Below, piece after piece: positions 6,763 through 47,003 of a stretch of 60,132 bases of DNA. Source of the stretch: [Clostridium] symbiosum (lineage in GTDB: Bacteria; Bacillota; Clostridia; Lachnospirales; Lachnospiraceae); NCBI GenBank assembly GCA_021769625.1, contig JAETSN010000020.1:1-60132 (forward strand), written 5' to 3'. Every line of letters starts with the position of its first letter. Position 1 is the first letter of the stretch. Below the pieces are notes generated by a model, which was not told where the DNA came from, searched no databases, and worked only from the letters and a program-made list of their open reading frames with translations. The translations under genes were made by a program, and so were the position numbers.

Positions 6763-6839
6763 CCTCTCGTCCTCCTCTTATATGAAAAATTTTTGCATTT
6801 ATCTGTCCTTTTCAGATGTTCATCAAAATTTCATATTTC

Positions 6840-6868
6840 ATTATGTTTAATATATTGAGTATAGTCAA
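6840..6868 (-). promoter_or_regulatory. Promoter with palindromic operator (site A)
   Basis: On the minus strand: -35 TTGACT, a 17-base spacer ATACTCAATATATTAAA, -10 CATAAT. The spacer carries ACTCAATATATTAAAC, one of six related palindromes in the window. On the plus strand the same DNA offers TTGAGT, 17 bases, TATGGT facing the Cro/CI-type gene at 6936, so one site could control both directions. Confidence 0.7.
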
Positions 6869-14591: not shown

Positions 14592-14761
14592 TTCATTATT
14601 TTCCTTCCTTTTCCGTGTATTTTGATTTTCCTCATCCGTCAAACAGTTTTTTGAATTTCTTCGATATCCTTCATATCTTCAATTGTATAGATTGCTTTTT
14701 CGGATTTACCAGCTTCCTTTTGTTTGTTCCGATTCCTCTCATTCCCATCGATATTTTTTAC

Positions 14762-14790
14762 ATTATACTTAATATATTGAGCATAGTCAA
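14762..14790 (-). promoter_or_regulatory. Promoter with palindromic operator (site C)
   Basis: On the minus strand: -35 TTGACT, 17-base spacer containing GCTCAATATATTAAGT (its last T is the first base of the -10 box), -10 TATAAT. A nearly consensus promoter with the palindrome between the hexamers. It precedes the two-helix membrane protein gene. Confidence 0.75.
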
Positions 14791-14924: not shown

Positions 14925-15863
14925 TTATTCGTATGTGTACTCTACCCAGTCTGACATCGTTCCATCGGCGTTATAATAAGATTCTTTTATCTTATTCCCC
15001 TGGCTGTCATAGCTATATTCTGTCCATTCAGGGGCAAACCCTTCAATATGCGAAACATTCTTTATCATGTTTCCCCGGCCGTCATAGCTGTACTCCGACC
15101 AACCGGACAGAGATCCATCGGCGTTACGCTCCTCTGCCTTTATCTGGTTTCCCCGGCTGTCATAGCTGTAGTCTGTCCAGCCTCTCACCGCTCCGCTGCT
15201 GTCATAACTTGTTCCCTTTATCTTGTTTCCCTGACTGTCATAACTGTACTCTGTCAAACTGGCCCGCAATGCTCCACCGTTGTTATAATAAGCACATGTC
15301 AACTCGTTTCCCTGACCGTCATAGGTATACTCCGTCACATCCGACGTTCCGTCATAATACCAGACTTCCTTTACCAGATTCCCCTGGCCGTCATAACTGT
15401 ACTCTGTATAGTCATACAGTTGTCCGCCCATGTCATATCTCGTTTCCTTTATCTTATTCCCCTGGCTGTCATAGGCGTAGTCCGCCCGCACCCCCATAGC
15501 GTTATTCCAATACCATACCGCTTTCACCAGCTTCGCCCCGCTCGTATTGGCCGCTGCCGTATCCGCCGTTGTCTCCGCAGACGTATCTGTTGTTGTTTCC
15601 GTTACAGTTCCTGTCGATTTTCCCGGCAACATGAGCTGCTGTCCCGCATAGAGGATATTGGCATTCTTTATGATACCTTTGTTTGCCTCGTAGATCGTCT
15701 TCCACTCTTCCCTGCTGCCATATACTTCCTTCGCGATTTTGGAAAGATTATCCCCACTCTTCACCGTGTAGACGCCATCCTCCGCATGTACGGTCAATAC
15801 CGAACCGAGCATCATGACAGCCATAGCCATAACAACCAATTTTTTGAACCGTTTCTTTTGCAT
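14925..15863 (-). CDS. Secreted LysM protein with YD-type repeats
   Basis: Starts MQKKRFKKLVVMAMAVMMLGSVLTVHA, a signal peptide. A LysM domain follows (YTVKSGDNLSKIAKEVYG...ILYAGQQLMLPG, about 31-80), which binds peptidoglycan, then a Thr/Ala-rich linker. From about residue 115 to the end there are seven complete repeats and one partial repeat of about 26 residues with the signature YSYDSQGNKIKE, the YD/RHS type. The last unit is cut at YTYE. Unlike RHS toxins there is no shell length and no C-terminal toxin. The start follows AGGAGG; the long upstream frame would overlap the -35 box. Likely a wall-attached protein under operator site D. Confidence 0.82.
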   Translation of the reverse strand: MQKKRFKKLVVMAMAVMMLGSVLTVHAEDGVYTVKSGDNLSKIAKEVYGSREEWKTIYEANKGIIKNANILYAGQQLMLPGKSTGTVTETTTDTSAETTADTAAANTSGAKLVKAVWYWNNAMGVRADYAYDSQGNKIKETRYDMGGQLYDYTEYSYDGQGNLVKEVWYYDGTSDVTEYTYDGQGNELTCAYYNNGGALRASLTEYSYDSQGNKIKGTSYDSSGAVRGWTDYSYDSRGNQIKAEERNADGSLSGWSEYSYDGRGNMIKNVSHIEGFAPEWTEYSYDSQGNKIKESYYNADGTMSDWVEYTYE

Positions 15864-15909
15864 TTTTTTCTCCTCCTTTTCTCTTTTGCAAGGTATTTTT
15901 ATCATCCCT

Positions 15910-15938
15910 ATTATACTTAATATTTTGAGTATAGTCAA
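15910..15938 (-). promoter_or_regulatory. Promoter with palindromic operator (site D)
   Basis: On the minus strand: -35 TTGACT, 17-base spacer ACTCAAAATATTAAG core, -10 TATAAT. It differs from site C at only two spacer positions and precedes the LysM gene by about 47 bases. Confidence 0.75.
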
Positions 15939-23456: not shown

Positions 23457-23650
23457 ATTAATACCTTAACCAGCCCGTATGGAAATCAAATTCTCAAGGA
23501 ACCCCTTAAAAAGCGTCGGCACAATTGGCAAATGTGAAATTTAAAAAGCAAAATTTCACATGGTCCCTCACGAACCTAGTACCGCTACGCTTTTTTGGAG
23601 CGCAAGCGTGGTGACGGAGAATTTGATTTCCATACGGGCGTCCGGTCATA
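23457..23650 (+). repeat. Structured intergenic element, copy 2
   Basis: A complete element with a perfect 22-bp terminal stem (arms 23474-23495 and 23617-23638), the conserved CTCAAGGA, AAAAAGCGTCGGCAC, CACGAACCTAGT and GCGTGGTGACGGAG blocks, and an extra internal hairpin near 23530-23565 (ATGTGAAATTT with AAAATTTCACAT). It lies directly upstream of the truncated vanR. Confidence 0.85.
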
Positions 23651-29299: not shown

Positions 29300-29463
29300 T
29301 CAGTTAAAACCAATAACCAGCCGGGAGGAAAATCAAATCCTCAAGGAGCCCCTGCAGCAACGTCGGCACTTGGCGAGGTCCCTCACGAGCCTAGTACCGC
29401 TACGTTGCAGCCCGGAGCGCGAGCGTGGCGACGGAGGATTTGATTTTTCTCCCGGCGTCCGCT
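29300..29463 (+). repeat. Structured intergenic element, copy 3
   Basis: Complete element. Terminal arms 29321-29342 and 29434-29455 form 21 Watson-Crick pairs and one G-U. The second helix is GCAACGT/ACGTTGC, where other copies have AAAAAGCGT/ACGCTTTTT. It fills the gap between the permease stop codon and yjjI. Confidence 0.85.
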
Positions 29464-32994: not shown

Positions 32995-34167
32995 TTATGG
33001 ACGAACTGCGTCACGGATCTCGTTGATCTTATCCGTGGTAATTCCCTCGTTAGGTGTCATTGTCACTTCACCGTTCACAACCTTCTCCTTCAGCTCTTCG
33101 ATCTGCGCGCGTGCATCTTCAGAGAGGAGTTTCTCATAAAATTCATTTTCCGCGATACCTACAGCGCCTGTCTCGATACCGAACACTTCCCTTGTACCGT
33201 AATTCACATCTCCCTTCATCGCCCTGTCCACCACGTTGACAGCGTTCTGCGGAATGTTCTTGATCGCGGAAGTGATGATCACATTTGCCATCTCCGGTTT
33301 CGTATCTTTCAGAGCTTCCGCCTGGTCGGAGTCCACACCGATCGCAAATTTTCCTTTTTCCACCGCCGCGTCGATCACGCCGAGGCCGGACTGTCCTGCC
33401 GCCGCAAATACAACGGATATATCGTTGTAGAGCAGAAGCCCGTTCTCTTTGCCTTTTGCAGTGTCCGTAAAGCTGCCCACATAAGAAGTCGCTACCTTGA
33501 TATCGGGATTGATCGCCTGCGCGCCCTCAATATAGCCTACCAGGAACTCATTGATGCCCGGAATGTCCATACCGCCCACAAAGCCGATCGTATCCTCGCC
33601 GAGTTCCTGCGCTTTCAGGGCTGCCGCAGCGCCCGCCAGATAGCACATCTCATTGTTCTTGGTTCCCATGATATATACATTTGCGGGGGGATCCGTCATC
33701 TCATCGTCCAGATTGATGAATTTCTGGTCGGGATACTCTTCCGCAGCCTCCACCAGCGCATCGTCATTGTTGCTGGAGATCGTCAGGATCAGGTCGTAAT
33801 CCTTCTTGCACATATCCACCAGCGCCGGATAATATTTGGATGTATCCGTTCCCGCTTCCACATATTCCACTTCCACGCCCAGCTCATTCTGCAGCGGCTC
33901 GATGGATGCAAAAGCCGCATCGAAGAAGGACTTGTCCCCCAGTGTGCCGGGGATCATCAGGCCTACCCTGTAGGTGCCGCCCTCCGCCGCAGCGCTCTCG
34001 CCTTCCGCCGCCTCCGCTGTCTCTTCCGGTGCCGCTGTCTCTTCCTCCGCTTCCGGCGCCGCCTCCCCGGCAGTCTCCACCTCATCAGGCTCCGGTGCGC
34101 CGCAGCCTGCAAGTAATCCCGCAGTCATGCAGAGCGCAAGTACTGTTGCAATAACTTTTCTCTTCAT
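32995..34167 (-). CDS. BMP-family nucleoside-binding lipoprotein
   Basis: Extracytoplasmic substrate-binding protein of the importer. A lipoprotein signal peptide ends at the lipobox LLAGC (Cys about 22). A Glu/Ala-rich linker of about 45 residues precedes the binding domain: YRVGLMIPGTLGDKSFFDAA, GFVGGMDIPGINEFLVGYIEGA and GLGVIDAAVEKGKFAIGVDSDQ. Lipid-anchored outside the membrane. First gene of the operon, with GGAGG before the ATG. Followed by ATPase and two permeases; a nucleoside hydrolase gene lies upstream on the same strand, separated by a structured element. Confidence 0.92.
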   Translation of the reverse strand: MKRKVIATVLALCMTAGLLAGCGAPEPDEVETAGEAAPEAEEETAAPEETAEAAEGESAAAEGGTYRVGLMIPGTLGDKSFFDAAFASIEPLQNELGVEVEYVEAGTDTSKYYPALVDMCKKDYDLILTISSNNDDALVEAAEEYPDQKFINLDDEMTDPPANVYIMGTKNNEMCYLAGAAAALKAQELGEDTIGFVGGMDIPGINEFLVGYIEGAQAINPDIKVATSYVGSFTDTAKGKENGLLLYNDISVVFAAAGQSGLGVIDAAVEKGKFAIGVDSDQAEALKDTKPEMANVIITSAIKNIPQNAVNVVDRAMKGDVNYGTREVFGIETGAVGIAENEFYEKLLSEDARAQIEELKEKVVNGEVTMTPNEGITTDKINEIRDAVRP

Positions 34168-34212
34168 GTCTCTTTTTTCCTCCGTTTTCTCTGTTCTTTT
34201 GTTTGTTTTACA

Positions 34213-34446
34213 CCGCAGCCAATGTCATTCAGTTAATGCCGTTAACCAGCCGAGAGGGAAATCAAATCCTCAAGGAGCCCCTTAAAAAGCGTCGGCACTT
34301 AGCGAGGTTCTTTACGAGCTTAGTGTCCGCTACGCTATTTCACAGGCTCTTGAAAAACAGAGCCAGCGAGAGCGTGGCGACGGAGGATTTGATTTCCCTC
34401 TCGGCGTCCGCAATACTAACTAAATTACATTGGCTTCGCAGCCGCT
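34213..34446 (+). repeat. Structured intergenic element, copy 4 (most complete)
   Basis: Perfect 23-bp terminal stem (arms 34249-34271 and 34383-34405) and, outside it, a second inverted pair: GCCAATGTCATTCAGTTA at the left and AACTAAATTACATTGGC at the right. The core holds CAAGGAGCCCC, AAAAAGCGTCGGCAC, GCGAGGT, CACGAGCTTAGTG with a one-base change, the optional hairpin GGCTCT/AGAGCC, and GCGAGAGCGTGGCGACGG. It lies between the BMP gene and the nucleoside hydrolase gene. Confidence 0.88.
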
Positions 34447-34499
34447 TGTTTTTCCTTTGCGGCTGTCATATCATAAACCGTCTGGCGGTTATGACCTCC

Positions 34500-35447
34500 T
34501 CAAAAATAGCGTTCCATCACGTTCCAGAAACGGTCCAGATCAACCGTTTCTGCATACCGCAGCCCGTTCTCCGGGATCTGCGGATCGATCTCATAGTAAT
34601 TCGTCCGGTCCACCATGGTTCCCCTGGTAAGGCGTCCCGCAAGTTCCACGGAAAAATCCCCCCTCTTTAACGAAACGACCTGTGGATCGATCAGGTACGC
34701 CGCAAGAAGCACATCGTGCAGGGTGATCGGATAGCCCGTCTTTTCCTGAAAGATCCCGACGCCCCGCAGATAATAGTCCATCGTCTCCGAATGCCTGTCC
34801 CGCCACTGATCCGCACGCTCCCCGGAAACCTTCAGGTATTTCGTCACATCCAGCCCCATCATGATCAGATTTTCCGACTGTTCCACCACGATAGCCGCAG
34901 CCTCGGGATCACAGACGATATTCCACTCCGGCGCCGTGTTGAAAAAAGCGCCTCCCATGGCAACGATCTGTACTTTCTTCATGAGCTCCGGCTCACGCAG
35001 AAAAGCCTGCGCCAGATTCGTCATACAACCCATCTCCAGTATCACGACACCGGGTTCTCTTCGCACCGTCTCCACTATAAAATCTGCCGCCGTCTCCGGG
35101 AAGAGCGTTCCACTTCTTCTCCCATCCCTTCCCTCTTCTGAAACTCCAACCGGAAGTTTTGCATCGCCGCCCGTTGCCTCCAAAAGCGCATACTGCAGCG
35201 GCTCCTCCGGATCGCCCTCCGCCTTTTCCAGCAGGGCTCTGCCTCTGCCGATATGTACCGGGATATCCTCCCGGCCCCACTTCCTTAAAAGATCCTCCGC
35301 CATCTCCTTCCGTTTAACGGTATCCTTATAAACCGTCGTGATGCCGAGAATCTCCAGATCGGGACATCCCAGCGCAAGCATGATCGCCGCCGCGTCATCC
35401 ACATCGTCTCCCAGATCCGTATCGATCAGTATTTTTGTCTTTTCCAT
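34500..35447 (-). CDS. Nucleoside hydrolase
   Basis: Cleaves the N-glycosidic bond of nucleosides to base and ribose in the cytoplasm. The family's aspartate cluster is present as IDTDLGDDVDDAAAIMLAL near the start. Later parts are PGVVILEMGCMTNLAQAFL, MGGAFFNTAPEWNIVCDPEAAAIV and a C-terminal HDVLLAAYLIDP. Length 315, standard. The start is the ATG after GGAGTG; a GTG three codons earlier is inside the ribosome binding site. Its place next to a nucleoside importer supports a salvage route. Natural substrate (inosine/uridine or other) cannot be told. Confidence 0.88.
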   Translation of the reverse strand: MEKTKILIDTDLGDDVDDAAAIMLALGCPDLEILGITTVYKDTVKRKEMAEDLLRKWGREDIPVHIGRGRALLEKAEGDPEEPLQYALLEATGGDAKLPVGVSEEGRDGRRSGTLFPETAADFIVETVRREPGVVILEMGCMTNLAQAFLREPELMKKVQIVAMGGAFFNTAPEWNIVCDPEAAAIVVEQSENLIMMGLDVTKYLKVSGERADQWRDRHSETMDYYLRGVGIFQEKTGYPITLHDVLLAAYLIDPQVVSLKRGDFSVELAGRLTRGTMVDRTNYYEIDPQIPENGLRYAETVDLDRFWNVMERYF

Positions 35448-39848: not shown

Positions 39849-39920
39849 CAACCAATGCTCAGCTCAGATGAAGACAACATTCTCAAGGAGCCCCTTAAAA
39901 AGCGTCGGCACTCTGGCAAT
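39849..39920 (+). repeat. Structured intergenic element, copy 5 (5' half)
   Basis: Left arm ending ACAACATTCTC followed by CAAGGAGCCCC and AAAAAGCGTCGGCAC; it then stops, and copy 6 begins directly after CTCTGGCAAT. No right arm exists, so this is a fragment, probably interrupted by the next copy. Confidence 0.75.
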
Positions 39921-40083
39921 ACCAGTTAATACCTCAATCAGCTGGTAAGAACATAAAATGCTAAAGGAGCCCTTTGAAAAACGCCGGCACTTAGCGAGGT
40001 ATCTCACGAGCTTAGTGTCCGCTGCGTTTTTCACAGAGCGAGAGCGTGGCGACGTAGTATTTTATGTTCTTACCAGCGTCCGC
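39921..40083 (+). repeat. Structured intergenic element, copy 6
   Basis: Complete element of the second subtype. Arms 39941-39962 and 40056-40077 form 21 Watson-Crick pairs and one G-U. Helix 2 is AAAAACGC/GCGTTTTT. It lacks the optional GGCTCT hairpin. It fills the space between dxr and cdsA. Confidence 0.85.
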
Positions 40084-43168: not shown

Positions 43169-44242
43169 TTATGCCATTGCTTTCTTGAGATCCTCAAAGA
43201 AGGAAGAAGGATTGACATCCGCATAACACTGGGAGCAAAGACCCTCGATCACCGCACCGTTATTGATCTGAACGGATTTGGATTTAATATTGCCCATCAC
43301 GATGGCGGATGTGTCTAAAATAACCGGTCCCTTCACATCGATATCACCCTTCACAGCCCCTGCGATCACTGCGCTGTTTGCAAAAATGTTGCCGATGATG
43401 ATCGTGCTCTGTCCGATCTTAATGCTGCCGGCGCTATGTATATCGCCGTTGATCCTCGCCTTCTCCGCATAGACGTCCGACGCCTTGGAAGCCCCCTCGA
43501 TCTTTCCCGTGATGTTCAGTTTTCCGAGAATATCGATATTTCCCTCCACGGTTCCGATCACGTTCAGGGATCCCTGTGAAGAAATATCACCCCTGATCGT
43601 CATACCCGCCGTGATCAGTGCGGTCTCTTCCAGAGCTTCCCCTGTCATTTCAGAATTTTCTGTCTCCATGCCATTGTACTGAATCTCTTCCACTTGTTCT
43701 TCCTCCTCTTTCATTGTTTCTTCTTCCATCTCTTCATCCGGCCCGTATTCTGTCTCTTCCTCCGGTCCGTCTTCCGCTTCCGGCTCTTTTTCCGCGTTCT
43801 CCTCCGCGCCGGCTTTTGTCTCTTCCTCTGCTTCGTATTCCTCTACCGCCGGATTCGCTTCTTCTTCCGGTCCGTATTCCTCTACCGCCGGATCCGCTTC
43901 CTCTTCTTCCGGTTCAGATTCCGGCTCTTCTGCAAAATCCGCCTCCTCTTCACCCGGTTCGGCTTCCGGCTCTTCTGCAAAATCCGCTTCCCCTTCTTCC
44001 GGTTCGTATTCCGGCTCCATATCCAGTTCCATACGGTCGACCATCCGCCCCAGCTCTTCCGCTGTCTCCGGCAGGGAATTTTCCCTCTCCTCCAGATCAG
44101 CGTATTCCGGTTCTTCTGTCAGCTCCGGAACTTCTGCCGCCATATCTTCTTCCAGCGGCTTCTCAATCGCCTGTTCCTCGTCCGAAACCAGCTCGTTCAC
44201 CGCCTGAGAAAGATCTTCTTTCAAATCCGAAAAAAAGCCCAT
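43169..44242 (-). CDS. Bactofilin-like polymer protein with an acidic repeat region
   Basis: The C-terminal 145 residues (about 210-345) form a bactofilin domain of regular beta-helix turns: GMTIRGDISSQGSLNVIGTV, GKIEGASKASDVYAEKARINGD and GAVKGDIDVKGPVIL. Bactofilins polymerise without nucleotides and act as scaffolds. The first 200 residues are extremely rich in Glu and include 15-residue repeats (EEADFAEEPEAEP type), probably disordered. No membrane segment. The ribosome binding site GGAGG is nine bases before the ATG. It starts a run into pyrH. Confidence 0.85.
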   Translation of the reverse strand: MGFFSDLKEDLSQAVNELVSDEEQAIEKPLEEDMAAEVPELTEEPEYADLEERENSLPETAEELGRMVDRMELDMEPEYEPEEGEADFAEEPEAEPGEEEADFAEEPESEPEEEEADPAVEEYGPEEEANPAVEEYEAEEETKAGAEENAEKEPEAEDGPEEETEYGPDEEMEEETMKEEEEQVEEIQYNGMETENSEMTGEALEETALITAGMTIRGDISSQGSLNVIGTVEGNIDILGKLNITGKIEGASKASDVYAEKARINGDIHSAGSIKIGQSTIIIGNIFANSAVIAGAVKGDIDVKGPVILDTSAIVMGNIKSKSVQINNGAVIEGLCSQCYADVNPSSFFEDLKKAMA

Positions 44243-46821: not shown

Positions 46822-47003
46822 TAGGTTAATGAGGGCGGACGCGGATAAGAACATAAAATACTTCGTCGCCACGCTCTCGCTCTGTGAAAAGCGCAGCGGA
46901 CACTAGGCTCGAAAATACCTCGCCAAGTGCCGGCGTTTTTCAAAGGGCTCCTTAAGTATTTTACGTTCTTACCCGCTGACTGAGGTGTTAACTAAATGGC
47001 TGC
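46822..47003 (-). repeat. Structured intergenic element, copy 7 (reverse orientation)
   Basis: Complete element on the minus strand, second subtype. Arms 46841-46862 and 46955-46976 pair with two mismatches in plus-strand reading, which become G-U pairs when read in the element's own sense. It keeps GCCGGCACTTGGCGAGGT and GCGAGAGCGTGGCGACG and the outer ATTAACCTAATACATTGTC. Between argJ and the fusion gene. Confidence 0.85.

Follow-up and report, generated by a model that had tools for sequence, protein, structure and literature searches.

A constant structured core recurs in [Clostridium] symbiosum and in other Lachnospiraceae at the tip of long palindromic stems, and the stem often appears to be private to the copy that carries it, each pair of arms being self-paired. 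We consider the best account, at a probability of roughly 0.4, to be that this constant core lies on locus-specific palindromes that would have arisen by fold-back (template-switch) synthesis and was later captured, in the genus of the DNA studied here, by an IS4-type vector.

Results

Copies of the element in the window

The window, the whole stretch of [Clostridium] symbiosum DNA that was analyzed, is 60,132 nt long and contains five complete copies of the element and two fragments. The reference copy (positions 34247 to 34410, + strand) consists of a foot CAGC, the stem P1, the structured core, P1', and a foot GCGTCCG; it is the best match (202.5 bits) to R1, a covariance model made from 31 copies of the same genome, the reference copy among them. 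Its two 23-nt P1 arms (34249 to 34271 and 34383 to 34405, both +) form 23 of 23 Watson-Crick pairs. Between them, the covariation test described below delimits the two strands of P3, which include the CGUCGG motif (34284 to 34295, +) and the CCGCUACG motif (34327 to 34340, +), and folds and loop counts place a GNRA-type loop, GAGA, on the P5 hairpin (34368 to 34371, +). Outside the copy lies an outer inverted repeat, P0, with the character of an IS4-like insertion sequence (IS) terminal repeat, whose 5' end (CAATGTCATTCAGTTAAT) occupies 34220 to 34237 (+) and pairs with the 3' end at 34415 to 34432 (-); the 10-mers flanking P0 agree at 7/10 positions. The interval delimited by an earlier, sequence-only reading of this DNA, 34213 to 34446, corresponds to the 34247 to 34410 copy plus the outer inverted repeat. 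The copy at 34.2 kb was predicted to fold at -106.1 kcal/mol (z = -10.0), and none of 200 shuffled sequences was equally stable.

The other complete copies are located at 29318 to 29461 (+), 39939 to 40082 (+), 46836 to 46978 (-), and 23471 to 23644 (+), the last with an alternative inner hairpin (AATGTGAAATTT..). A 5' fragment recognized by sequence comparison (39860 to 39912, +) adjoins the 39.9-kb copy, and the 3' half of a copy whose 5' half is not recognizable lies at about 1180 to 1272 (+; model match 1117 to 1272, 46.4 bits). Other repeats were also seen in the window. A separate, AT-rich repeat of about 33 nt, 79 to 88% alike to TTTCATTATGTTTAATATATTGAGTATAGTCAA, occurs at 6836 to 6868, 14758 to 14790, and 15906 to 15938 and is possibly promoter or repeat derived; six 67-nt repeats, 63 to 73% alike to their reference copy, lie at 14959 to 15487 in open reading frames (ORFs) on either strand and probably represent a repeat protein; and degenerate repeats are found at 43685 to 44017 within an ORF at 43169 to 44242 (-).

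A covarying fold shared by several genera

The element consists of a constant structured core of about 95 to 100 nt (P2 to P5, with a GNRA-type hairpin) at the tip of the palindromic stem P1, which is usually 20 to 30 bp long and extends in some copies to 60 to 100 aligned positions. Beyond P1 (about 23 bp) come a short P2, then P3, a P4 hairpin that varies, and a small P5 hairpin bearing the GNRA-type loop; a similar fold was found in copies from several genera. P2 depends on the genus (GCC/GGC, GAAGCC/GGCTTC in G024, and GTCAGGTAC/GTGCCTGAC in G016), and P3 closes on CG-Y-CGG / CCG-YT-R-CG. The P4 hairpin was seen in exchangeable versions (AATGTGAAATTT.., TTAGGCGCTGTATTTTAGCGCC.., and GCGAGGT..), for example in the window copy at 23471 to 23644 and at loci L007 and L023.

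The fold of the element appears real; double-sided changes were found in 38 of 45 pairs in a 30-row alignment drawn from several genera. Paired cells made up 87.7% of this set, compared with 70.6% in shuffles of the 30 sequences, and none of 500 shuffles attained any of the five measures used; these shuffles ignore relatedness, and the covariation of P1 may be mutational. When the partners were shifted by 1 to 3 columns, at most 47.4% were paired, a control that is flattering since the structure was drawn from folds of the same sequences. In helix 4 of this test (P3 with the beginning of P4), 93.8% of cells were paired, with double changes in 9 of 14 pairs. The covariation that the sequence-only reading had described for an inner helix was likewise confirmed: in alignment A3, the pair types swap both at columns 47-129 (A-U 20, G-C 9, C-G 1) and at columns 50-126 (U-A 20, C-G 10). 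An RNAalifold consensus of the own-genome copies disagreed with the folds from several genera and implied many wobble pairs; it was replaced by the fold-drawn structure, and model R1 is still built on the RNAalifold-based first structure.

A GNRA loop was present in 62/65 parsed copies of the window's own genome, and a GNRA-type loop in 51/55 parsed copies of other genera, in which all four bases were found at N. Read in the sense of the sequence-only reading, the stem mismatches in 58 copies from other genera comprised 29 G-T and 9 A-C (P = 0.0017) and 16 others. This excess, together with the GNRA-type loop, makes that strand the better-supported folded strand.

The terminal arms had been said to pair over 22 to 23 bases, and in all five complete window copies P1 is indeed paired at 23/23 positions when G-T is counted as a pair. 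The further claim that non-Watson-Crick pairs are all G-U and never A-C holds in the window, where only four occur, all G-T in the element's own sense, and fails genome-wide: among 2070 P1 pairs in 90 own-genome copies there were 2009 Watson-Crick, 26 G-T, 10 A-C, and 25 other pairs, several of the mismatches being shared by descent. P1 is nearly pure Watson-Crick. In P3 of the 65 parsed own-genome copies, 18 G-T (17 of them at a single position) and 20 A-C were counted, with no excess of G-T.

Occurrence in the Lachnospiraceae

The dispersed structured family recognized in the window proved to be larger than first noted. Model R1 gave at least 149 matches at E <= 0.01, fragments included, in the own genome (G000, 4.08 Mb), where 150 of 1750 candidates were scored; it detected the element in 18 of 61 genomes, each a member of the same family, and gave no match in 24 genomes of other families. 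Model R2, which was built across genera and applied at E <= 0.001 with ten candidates scored per genome, found it in 118/299 sampled genomes of Lachnospiraceae (117/298 genera). In a phylum-wide sample, 5 of 398 genomes contained the element, four of them of the same family and one (G686), with five matches, of another. The named records among 35 stretches from a pattern scan were mostly Lachnospiraceae or Clostridia assemblies, including Acetatifactor. One locus, L243, lies in a record titled Muribaculaceae (JAMPHJ010000001.1), perhaps mislabelled or a mixed bin.

Comparison with Rfam gave no counterpart, in line with the earlier statement that no family name was known. In Rfam 15, there were no matches at the gathering score over the whole window, and three weak matches far below it at E <= 10 over 34150 to 34500. 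Ten loci from other genera matched nothing but a glmS and a tRNA, neither lying over the element. A distant blastn search (E <= 1e-3) of plasmid and phage records with one window copy found no match. Among open-licence PMC papers, as far as their titles or the starts of their abstracts reveal, no description of the element was found; the text of PMC10969869 mentions neither Clostrid nor Lachnospir, and PMC8632094 has these terms only in a reference. Stem-loop clusters are known from two Clostridium species (PMC2267715), and no Lachnospiraceae were seen in the portion of that paper available to us. The "skipping-rope" RNA, considered as a candidate identity, had no Rfam match, and no paper on it was found.

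Different stems on near-identical cores

The repeated unit is the core, and several genomes carry near-identical cores on different, self-complementary stems. Outside the window's genus (g1), the aligned stems, whose lengths can include inner P2 positions, had a median of 29 positions, 94% of them paired, and reached 94 of 103. Six within-genome pairs of copies had inner cores that were 94 to 96% identical. In three of these pairs, from G212, G292, and G031, inner-core identities of 0.96, 0.95, and 0.94 were accompanied by arm identities of 0.55, 0.70, and 0.70, so that the arms are largely unrelated when read against the 0.52 +/- 0.07 of random 20-mers and with the inner stem bases, which can be shared, that the 20-nt arm window includes. 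In the alignments of these three pairs, homology ends sharply at or just inside P1. The arms of the other three pairs (two in G024, one in G016) were 0.80 alike. Over 48 within-genome pairs, mean arm identity was 0.66, compared with 0.56 between genomes; taken over all pairs, the arms give a less clear-cut picture than in the best pairs.

In the own genome, arms are shared in families, with 65 distinct 5' arms among 90 and the commonest occurring 10 times. Core identity did not drop as flanks decayed (0.81 to 0.89 across five flank classes; correlation, 0.11), a weak test, on an aligner whose shuffled baseline is high (0.36 to 0.52), of whether the flanks are just what remains of a decayed mobile unit. 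In 29 pairs with a core identity of at least 0.95, the flanks averaged 0.69 over the inner left 20 nt and 0.54 to 0.60 elsewhere, compared with 0.53 for random sequence. The sequence-only reading had taken the arms to covary: pairing is indeed kept, and it is nearly pure Watson-Crick, on arms that in other genera can be unrelated between near-identical cores. Arms of this kind are at least as readily explained by palindrome formation or template switching as by selection on an RNA.

In 10 of 58 copies, the flanks by themselves form an inverted repeat that outscores every one of 290 mismatched-flank controls. At L222 (G128), the outer stem consists on one side of the coding end of an M18 aminopeptidase gene (286 bits; the match reaches position 431 of the 432-position profile) and on the other of an inverted copy of that end. 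Similar, weaker cases that are not among the ten above-control copies were found at L280 and L271, beside an ABC transporter gene and an aldo/keto reductase gene. At one own-genome site that is empty in G005 (X1), the outermost 8 nt of the stem are, by eye, an inverted copy of the native right flank. Many of the assemblies are draft or metagenomic, and individual long palindromes could be artefacts; copies shared between species and copies in a single-contig genome (G263) argue against a general assembly artefact.

Mobility and terminal repeats in the window's genus

The copies are mobile DNA, because there are orthologous empty sites, IS4-like ends, and 10-bp target duplications. Same-genus genomes lacked the element at all four comparable window sites (29.3, 34.2, 39.9, and 46.8 kb). 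The 29.3-kb copy is absent at the orthologous site in G006, G004, G008, G005, and G001, of which G005 and G001 have other sequence there; the 39.9-kb copy is absent in five same-genus genomes and the 46.8-kb copy in G005 and G006, the two aligned genomes; no relative covered the 23.5-kb site. At one further site, G008 and G006 have copies whose arms differ, and the site is unoccupied in G004 and G005.

Some g1 copies appear to be miniature inverted-repeat transposable elements (MITEs) of 190 to 245 bp, with IS4-like ends (CAATGTCATT.AGTTAA) and 10-bp target duplications, and an outer inverted repeat close to CAATGTCATTTAGTTAAC is common to many copies of the genus. Of 15 elements in G001, G004, and G008, 9 have flanking 10-mers that agree at 7 or more of 10 positions (two of them perfectly), versus none of 210 mismatched pairs; in G000, this holds for 4 of 12 two-ended elements (one perfectly, L044), versus 5 of 132 controls. 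Judged by these flanks, target duplication is clear in relatives and weaker in the own genome. The perfect duplications are those of L160, L141, and L044; at L096, L119, and L095, 8-bp repeats lie outside a further outer repeat. A 1.68-kb element in G005, which has the same ends (its right end being the contig end), encodes an IS4-family transposase (NF033592, 168 bits versus a cut-off of 115), and a transposase in G003 is 46% identical to it. In the own genome, this transposase was not found at E <= 1e-20. It occurs in 7 of the 61 relatives, and three of these seven (G026, G052, and G056) gave no core match; this distribution rules it out as a family-wide partner of the core. In G024, an IS4 copy with ends CAATGTCATTAAGTTAA and a 10-bp duplication is inserted inside a structured copy. 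Outside g1, a good outer repeat (at least 11/12) was found in only 13 of 58 copies (controls, 3/290), leaving 45 without one. In the window's genus, then, the element appears to be partly an IS4-type MITE.

Several shorter or altered forms were noted. L160 to L164 (G001) include elements of 61 to 99 bp that have the same IS4-like ends and remnants of P1 and no core. In one copy of the own genome (C48; L116, about 2380 to 2440), P1 arm sequence is kept and the core between the arms is missing, as a hairpin-mediated deletion would leave it. GTAACAGTTCAGCC, with 18 pattern matches in the own genome (a longer pattern starting with it included), was considered as the outer end of the element, with a possible likeness to IS66 ends, and rejected. 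At L115, a 2.7-kb span between two such ends had no evident transposase among its ORFs, by eye. Empty-site junctions carry CGTCC/CGTCCG although no element is present, twice in G005 (X3 and X4) and once in G007 (D); the motif is either a target motif or a scar.

Constraint at shared loci and gene context

A copy common to G000 and G005, between mgtE-like and typA-like genes (named by eye), is identical at 160 of 164 core positions, whereas its left intergenic flank is strongly diverged; from the alignment, this looks like selection rather than pure mobility. Another copy is common to G004 and G008, in a locus that is 95.4% identical over 3.0 kb; its P1 has two C-G/T-A double changes and one single change, its inner core has none, and a second shared copy has two scattered changes. 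On the evidence of these few loci, the core seems to be constrained in place, and paired changes seem to arise at a fixed locus.

In the own genome, with genes called by a simple ORF rule, the gene on the 3' side of the element is antisense and faces it in 63 of 86 cases. The element often lies within 7 to 30 nt of the stop codon of the facing gene (median, 17 nt in (-,-) cases), and stop codons near it may be supplied in part by the P0 arm; in other genera, the median was 24 nt over 31 facing-gene cases. As a fixed-orientation marker of gene 3' ends, the element fits the own genome and seven G024 copies and fails both in G006, where 23 copies comprised 9 (-,-), 9 (+,+), and 5 (-,+), and in a wider set of 56 copies, with 17 (+,+), 16 (-,-), 15 (+,-), and 8 (-,+). 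Among the loci examined, copies less than 700 bp apart were arranged head-to-head in 13 of 15 pairs and tail-to-tail in none, some partners being partial (L069, L071, L076, L261, L276, L280, L284, L285, and L208; in the own genome, L091, L092, L093, and L099).

Discussion

What the data call for is a folded core that stays constant while it changes place, together with stems that belong partly to the place. The sequence-only reading had seen in the family the pattern of a conserved RNA rather than plain DNA repeats. A conserved, covarying structure with a GNRA-type loop and, elsewhere, 29 G-T against 9 A-C agrees in part with that statement; the opposition to DNA repeats is not supported, the copies being mobile DNA.

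One alternative, which we hold to be rather unlikely, is that the element is a selected structured RNA (a small RNA or an untranslated-region element) whose P1 serves as a long double-stranded stem, for example as an RNase III substrate, and drifts by compensatory change, while mobility only makes the copies. Covariation across genera, the GNRA-type loop, the 29:9 ratio of G-T to A-C outside the genus, and the orthologous copy conserved above its intergenic flank all speak for such an RNA, as does the position of own-genome copies, often beside stop codons and with the right-hand gene antisense in 63/86 cases. However, gene orientation is not fixed in other genomes, P3 has no G-T excess in the 65 own-genome copies (18 G-T, 17 at one position, to 20 A-C), and with a G-T share of only 1.3% in P1 (26/2070), wobble intermediates are scarce as a path for drift. 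Slow stepwise compensation would hardly give near-identical cores whose arms are largely unrelated, as in three of the six pairs.

Two further explanations start from known kinds of DNA, and we regard both as improbable. The core might favour as insertion targets the loops of palindromes already present, for example transcription terminators near gene ends, the stems being old host hairpins; this would agree with its closeness to stop codons when it faces an antisense gene (medians of 17 nt in the own genome and 24 nt in other genera) and with terminator-like sequence seen by eye inside some long arms (L211 and L266). Stems of 20 to 30 bp, up to about 100 positions, nevertheless exceed usual terminators, the L222 stem extends into coding sequence, and the empty sites L137, X1, and X3 have no palindrome by eye, a finding that is not decisive in that donor arms are partly present in those own-genus copies. 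Also a poor candidate is an ordinary MITE of an IS4-family insertion sequence, with a structure that amounts to inverted ends plus decay. The g1 ends (CAATGTCATT.AGTTAA) with their 10-bp duplications, the short 61- to 99-bp derivatives in G001, and the IS4 transposase with the same ends in G005 are what such a MITE predicts, but the core occurs in 118/299 genomes of the family against a transposase in 7/61 relatives, three without the core, and 45/58 copies of other genera lack a good outer repeat. Nor are covarying helices and a GNRA loop features that the interior of a MITE should be expected to retain from genus to genus, and the pairs from G212, G292, and G031 indicate that arms and interior do not travel together as a conserved unit in every host.

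Fold-back copying at insertion, followed by upkeep through template switching, is a process that would be able both to move a constant core and to give it a stem of the place. In the sequence of events that we propose, the core would be copied into a new site, with its two ends side by side in the folded strand, and because of this proposed juxtaposition DNA synthesis could fold back and copy the adjacent host sequence inversely, giving the order host-core-inverted host. Later template switching within the hairpin would re-perfect the stem, whether or not the fold is also selected. In the window's genus, copies would have come to lie between IS4-type terminal repeats, perhaps via inverted duplication of an IS end, and would then have spread as MITEs of 190 to 245 bp with 10-bp target duplications. 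None of the empty sites examined was clean enough to show the fold-back step, intergenic divergence blurring their edges, and it is for this reason that we infer the step. Other observations also weigh against the account: the CGTCC/CGTCCG motif at three empty junctions, the partial sharing of arms in G024, G016, and the own genome, the missing transposase and the weaker duplications in the own genome, the scarcity of good outer repeats outside g1, and the conservation of the copy common to G000 and G005. The core may also act as a transcribed RNA or as folded single-stranded DNA; a function as RNA is possible because of the GNRA loop, the G-T excess, and the constraint.

More tentatively still, the core could be described as a novel type of bacterial mobile element, a "cap," a constant fold that is copied into a site and makes its own stem by inverse duplication of the local host sequence, which would yield private palindromes. 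The cap would be kept by its fold (as RNA or single-stranded DNA) and the stem by template switching, and the cap could turn an IS end into a two-ended, transposable MITE.

MITE-type repeats such as the Correia elements (CREE) of Neisseria, ERIC, BOX, and RUP are likewise short, dispersed, intergenic, foldable, gene-less, and mobile, as far as the portions available to us of PMC10969869, PMC2649163, and PMC3049150 describe them. Like MITE-type repeats, the element has end repeats with target duplications, here in one genus. The Correia, ERIC, BOX, and RUP families are not known to change their arm sequences, whereas the element presents a constant core on stems that are sometimes unrelated between copies, and its core covaries across a bacterial family. 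With the IS4 family (NF033592), it shares, in the window's genus, the terminal repeat CAATGTCATT.AG.TAA and 10-bp duplications; it differs in having no transposase and in occurring also in genera in which it was not seen to be flanked by such ends. Integron attC sites combine variable sequence with a conserved fold and act as strand-specific single-stranded hairpins, with conserved boxes in the stem ends and a varying tip; the element, which also has a conserved fold, is the reverse, with a constant tip and a varying stem. REP/REPIN sequences (RAYT) resemble it in their many copies, hairpins, and non-autonomy, but REPs are much shorter and have a fixed foot. Template-switch (quasipalindrome) mutation is a published one-step route to paired stem changes, making reverse-complement stems and multi-base compensatory changes at once; as presented in the part of that work available to us (PMC8794818), it acts on existing RNA genes and not on a repeated mobile core that carries the process along.

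The element is a common component, found in 118/299 sampled genomes, of a main gut family. With a constant tip and often independent stems, it is a natural repeated experiment on the origin and upkeep of long stems, and strong stem covariation in repeats need not mean selection on RNA. If fold-back synthesis is the true origin of the stems, it would be one way for a structured sequence to build transposable elements from host or IS sequence.
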